Virus record (IMG/VR): IMGVR_UViG_3300023184_000568
Location: 1 to 22,074 of that record
Strand: one strand, 5' to 3'
Source: a virus
DNA length: 22,074 bases
Part shown: piece after piece, positions 2,710 through 5,057 of the stretch
How positions within the stretch are numbered: position 1 is the stretch's first letter
Layout: each line of letters starts with the position of its first letter
Position numbers and translations under genes: made by a program
Notes under the pieces: model-generated
Told to the model about the DNA's origin: nothing
Databases searched by the model: none
Seen by the model: only the letters and a program-made list of their open reading frames with translations

Positions 2710-2816
2710 TAATTGTCCCTTACATCGGTCTTATAACGCCCTCTGTAAAACGGCATAACTGTGGTCGTCTAGGACATTCTGTCCTATATATTTATATATT
2801 ATATATAAGACTTGCG

Positions 2817-2848
2817 GAATTAAAGGGAGCAAGTCTGCTCTTTAATTC
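2817..2848. repeat. Hairpin: 12-bp stem with two-base bulge
   Basis: GAATTAAA pairs with TTTAATTC, then a GG bulge, then GAGC/GCTC around a six-base loop AAGTCT. No U-run follows on either strand, so it does not look like an intrinsic terminator. Confidence 0.7.
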
Positions 2849-2870
2849 GTAGTAATTATTTTATTACTAC
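2849..2870. repeat. Perfect 8-bp hairpin
   Basis: GTAGTAAT (2849-2856) is perfectly complementary to ATTACTAC (2863-2870) around a TATTTT loop. It abuts the previous hairpin with no gap. Confidence 0.75.
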
Positions 2871-2924
2871 ATATATAGATAACCCGTTGGAACGGGTAAA
2901 ACCGAACACTCTGTAGAGATATAT

Positions 2925-2953
2925 TTTTATATATAGCCCCCTTATATATAAAA
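2925..2953. repeat. Perfect 11-bp AT-rich hairpin with C-rich loop
   Basis: TTTTATATATA (2925-2935) pairs perfectly with TATATATAAAA (2943-2953) around the loop GCCCCCT. It is immediately followed by another hairpin at 2953-2968. A cruciform or DNA-unwinding function would fit such an AT-rich perfect palindrome, but this is inference. Confidence 0.75.
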
Positions 2954-3280
2954 GCCCTGGTCAGGGCTATATAACAGAAAATTTATGATTGATAGTACAG
3001 TGATGAACTGACGGTTCATTAAACATCCTGGGGTCAAATGCCTGACCCTAAACCTATACCTGAGCCTTAGACATCCTACGGCTATGTGTCTATGTGTATA
3101 TGTGACCCTAACGGTCACGGTCTGTAAGTATTTAATCCCTGAGGGGATGTAAAAATTACTTTACATAATGTAGATGTAGACTTATGGCGTGTGACTGTCC
3201 CCCCTGATGGGTATCCATTCCCCCGCATATAATATAAATGGAATCCTGAGCAATTATAAGACTTAAACAGGTTCCCAAAA

Positions 3281-3335
3281 TGTGACGCAAATCACACCAA
3301 ATAGCCTTGACTTACGCCTTGAGGCGTGAGAGTCT
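3281..3335 (+). promoter_or_regulatory. Regulatory module 1: CRP/GlxR-type palindrome plus promoter-like boxes
   Basis: A perfect TGTGA-N6-TCACA palindrome (3281-3296), the consensus bound by CRP-family regulators including actinobacterial GlxR/Cmr, is followed by TTGACT (3307-3312), and GGCGTGAGAG at 3323-3332. The same elements at nearly the same spacing recur at 4093 and 4639. With a 17-base spacer the -10 position reads GAGTCT, a weak match to the actinobacterial TANNNT. It ends 85 bases before the SprT-like gene start, counted from the palindrome. Confidence 0.65.
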
Positions 3336-3345
3336 TAAGACATAA

Positions 3346-3380
3346 GGGGAACAAGCCCCGATAAGATAGGAGAAAATCAA
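3346..3380 (+). promoter_or_regulatory. Leader module with variant SAS-like word before the SprT-like gene
   Basis: A small hairpin GGGG/CCCC (3346-3359) is followed by AAGATAGGAGAAAATC (3363-3378), a variant of CTTAAGACAGGAG-A-rich, and then by the GTG start at 3381. A fuller copy of the word start, CTTAAGACA, also lies upstream at 3334-3342. Confidence 0.6.
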
Positions 3381-4037
3381 GTGAACACAACAACAAGCAA
3401 GAAGAAAGCAACAAGCGCGGCGGACATATTCGCCAAGCCTGCCAAATCGGAGAACCTCTCAACCATCACTAAGGCACTAGAAGAGGCTCACGCCATTATC
3501 GCCAAGGAGAACAACGCCCCCCGCGCTACAATCGTTACAGGCCGCTCATCTACGGTTCACGGACATTTCACACCTTGGACACCTTGGGCATCTGGTGAGG
3601 AGACATTTCACGAGATATTCATCACGATAAGCAAGAGAACCGCCCGTGAACTATTGGGAACATTGTTACACGAGACCGCCCATTCGATAGACAATAAAGA
3701 GGGCGTACGCGGTACAAGCGGGGACGGGTATCACAACAAGAACTTTAAAGCGCGGGCAGAATCCCTAGGCCTCACAATCACCCAAGCCCCGCGAATCGGG
3801 TTTAGCGTAACCACCGTGAGCGACGATTGCGCGGCGCGATGGGCAGAACCTTTACGCCTAATCGAGGAGGCACTACGCCTAACAGCCGATAATGACGGGG
3901 GAACCGCCAAGCCTAAGGGCAGAAATAAGAACCTCTTGAAAGCAGTCTGCAAATGTTCAACGATACGCGCAAGCGCGTCGGTTATTGCGGCGGGTGTCAC
4001 TTGCGATAGTTGCGGGGCGGGATTCGTCAAGGCTTAA
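3381..4037 (+). CDS. SprT-like zinc metalloprotease with C-terminal zinc ribbon
   Basis: 218 residues from a GTG start with AGGAG ten bases upstream. The metalloprotease signature HETAH is at residues 97-101, with a probable third zinc ligand at H118 in GDGYHNKNF. The C-terminus carries a zinc-ribbon-like pair, C190-x-C192 and C208-x2-C211. This order matches SprT-like domain proteins found in many actinophage early regions; cellular relatives (SPRTN/SprT) act on DNA-bound proteins. A role in removing DNA-protein crosslinks or degrading a host factor is inference. It is the first gene of the rightward operon, under regulatory module 1, and is more GC-rich than the late genes. The stop codon overlaps a CTTAAGACA word. 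Confidence 0.85.
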   Translation: MNTTTSKKKATSAADIFAKPAKSENLSTITKALEEAHAIIAKENNAPRATIVTGRSSTVHGHFTPWTPWASGEETFHEIFITISKRTARELLGTLLHETAHSIDNKEGVRGTSGDGYHNKNFKARAESLGLTITQAPRIGFSVTTVSDDCAARWAEPLRLIEEALRLTADNDGGTAKPKGRNKNLLKAVCKCSTIRASASVIAAGVTCDSCGAGFVKA

Positions 4038-4046
4038 GACATAACA

Positions 4047-4088
4047 GCCCCCGCGCTACGGGCTACGGGTTCACAATCCGACGGGGGC
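4047..4088 (+). terminator. GC-rich hairpin after the SprT-like gene (attenuator or processing site)
   Basis: GCCCCCG (4047-4053) pairs perfectly with CGGGGGC (4082-4088), leaving a 28-base loop that holds two tandem copies of CTACGGG. There is no U-run, so it is not a classical intrinsic terminator. The loop also contains GGGTTCACAATCC, reminiscent of a tRNA T-arm, see findings. Confidence 0.4.
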
Positions 4089-4092
4089 ACGA

Positions 4093-4147
4093 TGTGACCA
4101 ACATCACACCGCAAACGCTAGACAAGCGGCGGCAGGCGTGAGAGGGT
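4093..4147 (+). promoter_or_regulatory. Regulatory module 2: CRP/GlxR-type palindrome plus promoter-like boxes
   Basis: A perfect TGTGA-N6-TCACA palindrome (4093-4108), TAGACA (4119-4124) 18.5 bases from its centre, and GGCGTGAGAG (4135-4144). The last block is identical over ten bases to that of module 1 and is at exactly the same offset (16) from the -35-like box. The palindrome ends 94 bases before the ATG at 4202. Confidence 0.65.
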
Positions 4148-4160
4148 TACAACAAGGAAG

Positions 4161-4201
4161 CGGGAAGATGTCCCGTTACCACTTAAGACAGGAGAAAGAA
4201 A
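4161..4201 (+). promoter_or_regulatory. Complete leader module: hairpin plus CTTAAGACAGGAG
   Basis: CGGGA/TCCCG hairpin (4161-4175), five bases TTACC, then ACTTAAGACAGGAG (4181-4194), then AAAGAAA and the ATG at 4202. This is the best non-coding copy of the module and can be taken as its reference. Confidence 0.75.
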
Positions 4202-4549
4202 ATGGAACAACCAACAGCACGGGCGCAATTCGTGGCAGATTACACCCTAATAACCGACAACGACCAAGAAGCCTACCGCGAGGCCTTAGACATCGCACGC
4301 CAAGCGAGAGGGTCAGTCGTACAAGCAAGCGAGAAATTTAAAGAGCAGTTTGAAGACTACATCTCGCAAGTTGTAGAGAGAGAGCGCGAACAGGGCAACA
4401 CAACGGGCGCGGACTTAATCGGGCAAATGCTTATCGGGTTCGGTTCTGATTCCTTTGACGACATCGCCCGCCATTACATAGACACAGACTTGGAACAGCG
4501 AGTCTATGAGATGTTTAACCGCTCACTACTTAAGACAGGAGAAAAATAA
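4202..4549 (+). CDS. Conserved-looking acidic phage protein, unknown function
   Basis: 115 residues, mostly helical and acidic (MEQPTARAQFVADYTLITDN at the start). Blocks such as DNDQEAYREALDIAR and NTTGADLIGQMLIG look like a conserved early actinophage family, but I cannot name a function. The start is fixed by the CTTAAGACAGGAG leader ending eight bases upstream. The last seven residues LLKTGEK are encoded by the next copy of that same leader word, so the downstream gene's ribosome site is embedded in this coding region. Confidence 0.8.
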   Translation: MEQPTARAQFVADYTLITDNDQEAYREALDIARQARGSVVQASEKFKEQFEDYISQVVEREREQGNTTGADLIGQMLIGFGSDSFDDIARHYIDTDLEQRVYEMFNRSLLKTGEK

Positions 4550-4550
4550 A
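4528..4550 (+). promoter_or_regulatory. Leader word ACTTAAGACAGGAG embedded in a gene end
   Basis: The exact 14-base word at 4528-4541 followed by an A-rich stretch and ATG at 4551. It doubles as the C-terminal codons of the upstream gene. No convincing hairpin precedes this copy. Confidence 0.75.
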
Positions 4551-4643
4551 ATGACGCAGAGAATTAAGCAGGGCGGATATTGTTCAGATTGCAAACGCGA
4601 ATGGAAGACAGACGACGGCTATTTCAACCATAAATGCAAGTGA
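4551..4643 (+). CDS. 30-residue putative zinc-finger micro-protein
   Basis: Reads MTQRIKQGGYCSDCKREWKT and ends NHKCK. C11-x2-C14 and a later H-x-C give four potential zinc ligands. It starts one base after the previous stop, directly behind a full leader word, which is the main argument that this very short frame is a real gene. Function unknown. The stop TGA at 4641-4643 lies inside the palindrome of regulatory module 3. Confidence 0.65.
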   Translation: MTQRIKQGGYCSDCKREWKTDDGYFNHKCK

Positions 4644-4694
4644 CGTAAGTCACAGCCCGCCACTCTTGACAGAGGGCACAGGGAGCGAGACCCT
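4639..4694 (+). promoter_or_regulatory. Regulatory module 3: CRP/GlxR-like palindrome plus promoter-like boxes
   Basis: AGTGA-N6-TCACA (4639-4654; one mismatch to the CRP consensus), TTGACA (4666-4671) 19.5 bases from its centre, and GCGAGA (4685-4690) at offset 19 from the -35-like box, exactly as in modules 1 and 2 (GTGAGA). With a 17-base spacer the -10 position reads GACCCT. The palindrome ends 93 bases before the ATG at 4747. Confidence 0.6.
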
Positions 4695-4705
4695 AGGCGG
4701 GCACG

Positions 4706-4746
4706 GGTAGGAATCTACCAGAACGACAAACGACAGGAGAAAAGAA
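4706..4746 (+). promoter_or_regulatory. Leader module: hairpin plus partial word GACAGGAG
   Basis: GGTAG/CTACC hairpin with a GAAT tetraloop (4706-4719), then CGACAGGAG (4731-4739), A-rich spacer and ATG at 4747. The CTTAA half of the word is replaced by ACAAAC. Confidence 0.6.
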
Positions 4747-4914
4747 ATGAACACAGAAGAGTTCTTGAATTTCGGATTCGATAACTACAGCCTACAACTC
4801 ACGACATATTTCGGGGATATGTTTATCCCTTGGAGGACGGTCATCCTTGCGGTGTTAATCTTTGCAGGGCTAAAGGTTCGCAAGGTAATCAAGGCACGCA
4901 AGGCAGGCAACTAA
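4747..4914 (+). CDS. Small membrane protein, unknown function
   Basis: 55 residues starting MNTEEFLNFGFDNYS. A single hydrophobic span around residues 31-42 (TVILAVLIFAGL) is followed by a strongly basic tail KVRKVIKARKAGN, so an N-out/C-in single-pass topology is likely. The stop overlaps the next start as TAATG. It sits behind a leader module and regulatory module 3. No family recognised. Confidence 0.7.
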   Translation: MNTEEFLNFGFDNYSLQLTTYFGDMFIPWRTVILAVLIFAGLKVRKVIKARKAGN

Positions 4915-5057
4915 TGGAGTCACTATTTATCGTGTGCTATTTAATAGTTTTTGCTGGAGTGATGGCAATAATTGGAAACGCAGTAGACAAACTATGGGCA
5001 GCACACAAACGAGGGCTCGCTAGGGTGCGGGCTTATGACTTAAGACAGGGGAAATAA
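4914..5057 (+). CDS. Small membrane protein, unknown function
   Basis: 47 residues. The ATG at 4914 is chosen because it overlaps the previous stop (TAATG); an upstream in-frame ATG at 4830 lies inside the previous gene. A hydrophobic span at about 3-20 (SLFIVCYLIVFAGVMAII) is followed by a basic tail. It may partner with the preceding small membrane protein. The last residues DLRQGK are encoded by the next leader word. Confidence 0.65.
   Translation: MESLFIVCYLIVFAGVMAIIGNAVDKLWAAHKRGLARVRAYDLRQGK

Follow-up and report, generated by a model that had tools for sequence, protein, structure and literature searches.

CRP/GlxR-type operators and an overlapping candidate RNA element in the rightward genes of a probable Nanopelagicales phage

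How a virus in whose sequenced DNA no CRP was found could use CRP/GlxR-type operators in front of its own genes is the question raised by the locus described here. The window, i.e., the whole stretch of DNA that was analysed, is a virus record of 22,074 bases with a GC content of 45.6%. The terminase, structural and replication genes are transcribed leftward, and small genes form a rightward block from 3381 to about 7950 (Table 1). The first gene of this block also matches the Pfam SprT-like family weakly, at E 0.006, under the cut-off. No tRNA was found within the window, and the window proteins that were scanned included no recognisable integrase or repressor. The best explanation, with a probability of roughly 0.7, is that three promoters of the rightward block would be activated by the CRP of a Nanopelagicales host and that the third of them is dual-coded with a three-way-junction RNA.

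Two further features of the layout can be mentioned. The motif TTAAGACA is repeated at 3335, 4034, 4183, 4530, 5040, 5525, 7082 and 7409, in most cases past a stop codon and ahead of the next ribosome-binding site or junction element; it is also found throughout the relatives. The region 2800-3000, between the terminase and the first operator, is AT-rich and contains several inverted repeats, e.g., ATTAAAGGGAGCAAGTCTGCTCTTTAAT.

Table 1. Coordinates of the features of the window
Feature	Position	Strand	Details
CRP/GlxR-type operator 1, TGTGACGCAAATCACA	3281..3296	+	0 mismatches to TGTGA-N6-TCACA; same place in relatives, 5' of SprT-like gene
Promoter 1, -35-like box TTGACT	3307..3312	+	gap 10 from operator 1
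Promoter 1, -10-like box GAGTCT	3330..3335	+	17-nt spacer; TGA just upstream
SprT-like gene, 218 aa	3381..4037	+	first of rightward block; PHROG 6361, E 3e-37
Junction RNA copy A, weaker form	4044..4090	+	3' of SprT-like stop, 5' of operator 2; model R1, 28.7 bits, E 5.5e-7 (window)
CRP/GlxR-type operator 2, TGTGACCAACATCACA	4093..4108	+	0 mismatches; kept in relatives
Promoter 2, -35-like box TAGACA	4119..4124	+	gap 10 from operator 2
Promoter 2, -10-like box GAGGGT	4142..4147	+	17-nt spacer
115-aa gene 3' of promoter 2	4202..4549	+	ORF; 30 relatives in viral contigs
30-aa ORF	4551-4643		stop codon within operator 3
CRP/GlxR-type operator 3, AGTGACGTAAGTCACA	4639..4654	+	1 mismatch; relatives here often exact
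Junction RNA copy B	4652..4704	+	model R1, 59 bits, E 2.6e-16
Promoter 3, -35-like box TTGACA	4666..4671	+	gap 11; within P2 of junction RNA
Promoter 3, -10-like box GACCCT	4689..4694	+	17-nt spacer; within P3 of junction RNA
55-aa gene 3' of promoter 3	4747..4914	+	ORF
WhiB-like protein gene	6537-6887		regulator carried by phage
Sigma-70-region-4-like protein gene	7932-8576		regulator carried by phage

Operators and promoter boxes of the rightward block

A preliminary description of this DNA had placed three CRP/GlxR-type palindromes at 3281, 4093 and 4639, 85-94 bases before start codons, each with identically spaced promoter-like boxes. Coordinates and letters of the palindromes proved correct (0, 0 and 1 mismatches), and the sites end 85, 94 and 93 bases from the starts at 3381, 4202 and 4747. 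The boxes TTGACT, TAGACA and TTGACA are likewise present, with GTGAGA or GCGAGA 19 bases past each box start; these hexamers consist of the four bases 5' of the -10 box and the first two letters of that box. The -10 boxes of the window follow the pattern nAnnnT and are poor matches to TAnnnT, while the promoter 1 position in relatives is occupied by GATAGT, GAGAGT or TAGAGT. Transcription would be predicted to start near 3342, 4154 and 4701, so that the centres of the palindromes would lie near -54, which is to our knowledge a non-standard position for the class I promoters of E. coli.

Exact TGTGA-N6-TCACA sites are far above chance, with two observed in the window against 0.05 expected, and two in each of the isolates LanE43AprE7 and F5 (hereafter E7 and F5) against 0.1 and 0.05, respectively. 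When up to two mismatches are allowed, the 11 sites of the window equal background (12.95 in shuffles) and are uninformative. Conservation in related phages had been named beforehand as a test of the operators, and it is borne out. Relatives were collected as 36 viral loci through the SprT-like protein and 30 through the next gene, and exact sites recur 5' of the same genes, typically two to four per locus. After removal of near-duplicates, 45 nonredundant exact sites were retained. A TTGACA-like box (at least 5/6 letters) at gap 10 or 11 is present downstream, towards the gene, at 17 of the 45 and upstream at none; compared with the frequency of such boxes at other gaps, the enrichment has a P of about 6e-21. 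The palindromes, their fixed spacing and their recurrence in relatives support CRP/GlxR-type operators 5' of what appear to be sigma-A-like promoters.

The spacing is not uniform everywhere. The gaps in the window are 10, 10 and 11, and at site 1 some relatives have no good TTGACA at gap 10. At first-gene sites a few TTGACA-like boxes are found at gaps of 21-22 and 30-31, i.e., one or two helical turns further; the first site of E7 lies 31 nt from its TTGACT. In F5 and in one other relative (L009), a weak -35 box at gap 10 is combined with a TAGAGT -10 box at the same spacing, which is the pattern of an activator-dependent promoter.

The position of the operators bears on the direction of control. 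CRP-family proteins are repressors as well as activators, and it can be asked whether host CRP acts here as a repressor, holds back expression of the block for a time or senses the state of the host, instead of simply activating. A precedent exists in E. coli, where induction of phage T1 is under the control of host CRP through the phage regulator pir (PMC6737242). Such a role is nevertheless improbable here, given the constant distance of 10-11 bp between palindrome and downstream -35 box, with a few boxes at 21-22 and 30-31, and the pairing of weak -35 with TAGAGT -10 boxes in some relatives, as in activated promoters. Activation most likely accounts for the operator position, which fits it and does not fit repression by overlap. 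According to the activation model, the single CRP/GlxR ortholog of the host would bind about 54 bases 5' of the start, with 10-11 bp separating it from the -35 box, and would activate host RNA polymerase carrying the primary sigma factor in a class-I-like manner; the rightward block would probably comprise early genes.

Other motifs are found near these promoters. In the relatives, the sequence AAATG directly precedes the -35 box, 4-5 nt past the palindrome, at 12 of the 33 exact sites that are not at a junction element; the phages encode a WhiB-like protein, to which this motif may conceivably be linked. A second inverted repeat, GTTGT..ACAAC, flanks the -10 box of some site-2 and later promoters (relatives L003, L005, L006, L008, L017, L018 and L026) and is possibly another operator. 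In the relative L034, a type II hammerhead ribozyme (4899-4963; 38.8 bits, above the Rfam threshold) ends just 5' of the SprT-like start, the place occupied by site 1 in other phages.

The probable host and its CRP

The terminase of the window is 83% identical to those of OX376640 and OX376641, the isolated Planktophila phages E7 and F5, which infect a strain of Ca. Planktophila in the order Nanopelagicales (GC 46.5%; PMC10202952). Both isolates also carry exact CRP sites and the junction RNA element. The host of the phage is very probably a member of the Nanopelagicales (acI), as judged by phage relationship only. An actinobacterial order of streamlined genomes of 1-2 Mb (about 1.4 Mb) was taken as Nanopelagicales on the basis of size and GC, and its members are referred to below as host-like.

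The preliminary description had noted that no CRP homologue is encoded and had proposed the use of a host cAMP-type regulator. The first point is upheld: no cNMP-binding domain was detected either in the window or in the records of 17 related phages, complete E7 and F5 included, nor was a CRP-type HTH domain detected in those 17 records. A match to actinobacterial CRP is found in 192 of 197 Actinomycetes genomes, and exactly one CRP ortholog in 59 of 61 genomes of the host-like order. In the 10 host-like CRP genes that were read directly, the recognition helix is GASRETVNKALADF, of GlxR type and identical to that of the higher-GC actinobacterial CRP proteins examined.

The sites themselves are scarce in the host-like genomes. 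Consensus sites show no excess there (exact, 2 vs 2 in the control; one mismatch, 199 vs 202). The host thus shows no apparent CRP regulon built on sites of this kind, which is the main weakness of the activation model. A composite promoter, GTGA-N6-TCAC followed by TTGAC, occurs twice in 121 host-like genomes vs 20 times for the reversed control, a rarity that perhaps corresponds to avoidance of chance CRP promoters. As a signature of acI this composite was rejected, with only 39 stretches in 84,980 bacterial genomes and mixed phyla.

Inspection of one host-like genome of 1.38 Mb gave five GTGA-N6-TCAC sites, three of which were initially scored as non-coding and one of which is clearly intergenic, 93 nt 5' of ctaE. 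Four host-like genomes have GTGACCC(G/T)TTTCACC at this place, 93-94 nt 5' of ctaE, and a fifth has a less good match. The ctaE-qcrCAB promoter is bound by GlxR in C. glutamicum (PMC7026483). It is therefore plausible that the host CRP has retained the specificity, and one of the targets, to be expected of it, through a site poorer than those of the phage. Tight CRP binding would be expected at the phage sites, because they are closer to the consensus than those of the host-like genome inspected. In C. glutamicum, improvement of the GlxR site of the ldhA promoter to the full consensus led to better binding and to higher expression and activity (PMC7999487).

The second point of the preliminary description is borne out in part. 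Use of the host CRP is favoured by the single-copy ortholog, its GlxR-type helix and the ctaE site; control by cAMP is not, class III adenylate cyclase (PF00211) having been found in 0 of 14 host-like genomes. Because binding of GlxR to its consensus is about 100-fold weaker without cAMP (PMC7026483) and no such cyclase was seen, the role of cAMP is uncertain. We infer independence from cAMP, and the perfect phage sites may compensate for weak cAMP-free binding.

The scarcity of sites in the inferred host genomes, as opposed to several per phage, would also be expected if the palindromes were operators of a phage-encoded protein of another fold with the same TGTGA-N6-TCACA specificity. The phage does carry other regulators, namely the WhiB-like and sigma-70-region-4-like proteins, and many of its genes are unassigned. 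This origin is unlikely, however, in view of the 17 relatives without a CRP domain, of the 20 window proteins among which Pfam gave no other HTH repressor-like match, of the operators lying 5' of the -35 box at activator distance and not over the promoter, and of the GlxR-type recognition helix of the host CRP.

The three-way-junction RNA and its overlap with promoter 3

The account of the site anatomy given in the preliminary description was accurate for the boxes but missed that those of site 3 lie inside a junction RNA, a second copy of which immediately precedes site 2. In copy B, directly 3' of site 3, GCCCGCC..GGCGGGC encloses two hairpins, and the fold z-score for 4639-4722 is -3.9. The same layout is found with different sequences across the relatives. 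A covariance model recovers 122 copies in 72 loci, copies A and B of the window among them, all sense to the rightward genes, including L037 and L038, whose records have the reversed orientation.

The junction is a strongly covarying structured RNA, with compensatory stem changes above both shuffled and slid controls. In 88 distinct sequences, P1 and P3 are paired in 92.9% of cells vs 70.9% after shuffling, and the stems contain 216 double-change cells vs 58. The covariation score is 0.541, compared with at most 0.081 for slid partners, and P2 reaches at least 4 bp in 100 of 163 vs 24 when shuffled. The idea that P3 is a T-arm, or otherwise tRNA-like, was dropped, as its loop is not a constant T-loop.

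With a narrow DNA pattern, 92 more stretches of viral DNA were retrieved, part of them from loci already known; among the matches, contigs of 63-69% GC have the element just 5' of the ribosome-binding site. One contig of 89 kb (L182, L203 and L209), with a GC content of about 67% and local similarity to Microbacterium and other actinophages, contains at least eight junction copies, mostly directly before a ribosome-binding site. The element was found in 0 of 121 genomes of the host-like order, where stricter filters were applied. An Rfam scan of the window and seven relatives gave nothing at threshold except the L034 hammerhead. The nearest family, the DUF2693-FD RNA (RF02926), shares the three-way junction, a 7-bp outer stem and two hairpins, and its P3 loop AGCGAGA is that of copy B. 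It differs in the junction linkers, and the other junction copies tested do not match it. As the score of 17.6 bits is below the gathering score of 44.5, the junction RNA was not filed under DUF2693-FD. It recurs in many actinophages and is a candidate new family.

In copy B the -35 box of promoter 3 lies in the P2 loop and the -10 box in the P3 arm. This adjacency of site 3 to the junction, together with the potential of many class-3 palindromes to form GUGAN-GNRA-NUCAC hairpins, could be taken to mean that the repeats are mere RNA hairpins of structured intergenic elements and that the promoter boxes are coincidental. Such a reading is very hard to sustain: the TGTGA and TCACA arms are invariant, whereas the stems of the element itself vary freely, and no junction lies next to site 1 or next to the last sites of the relatives. 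Moreover, of the junction copies that adjoin a CRP site, 17 of 26 contain TTGACA at gap 10 or 11, vs 5 of 57 of those that do not (p = 2e-7), so that chance occurrence within the RNA does not account for the boxes of site 3.

DNA and RNA functions therefore seem to be layered here, promoter and RNA overlapping by design. As the predicted start of promoter 3 coincides with the 3' edge of the element, transcripts from this promoter would lack it, and the conserved junction would form only in read-through transcripts that cross promoter 3. With even odds, it can be proposed that an actinophage RNA family with several intergenic copies per phage has been co-opted, such that its P2 loop and P3 arm double as the -35 and -10 boxes of a CRP-activated promoter. 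The rightward genes of a phage of streamlined Nanopelagicales would thereby be coupled to a host regulator for which the host genome itself shows hardly any consensus regulon.

Relation to known systems and significance

The GlxR regulon of C. glutamicum (ctaE-qcrCAB, ctaCF, ctaD and ldhA; PMC7026483, PMC7999487) has in common with the phage sites the TGTGA-N6-TCACA consensus, and the inferred host order has the GlxR-type helix and the conserved ctaE site. Unlike those of that regulon, the sites described here are phage-borne, perfect or nearly so, and fixed at 10-11 bp from the -35 box, and no class III cyclase was detected in the hosts considered. With T1 the phage shares host CRP as an input to gene control. 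In T1, however, it is a regulator gene in lysogeny control that depends on CRP, whereas here several consensus operators lie directly at the promoters of the rightward block. E7 and F5 are cultured and whole; a WhiB protein and a sigma factor have been reported for both, and their promoters are not described in the main text of the report (PMC10202952). The open-licence literature gave no paper that describes CRP operators in phages of acI, the junction RNA in actinophages or gene control in Nanopelagicales phages. The interpretation given in the preliminary description is partly supported, i.e., largely right and incomplete, the junction RNA being the less expected part.

The Nanopelagicales rank among the most abundant bacteria of fresh water, and their phages were first isolated in 2023. 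A rightward block driven by host CRP would be a concrete and testable entry point into their gene control, for which the cultured relatives E7 and F5 are usable (LanE-43), and it would link infection to the global respiration regulator of actinobacteria. If the proposed overlap is true, a single stretch of DNA would be both an RNA structure in read-through transcripts and a promoter controlled by host CRP.
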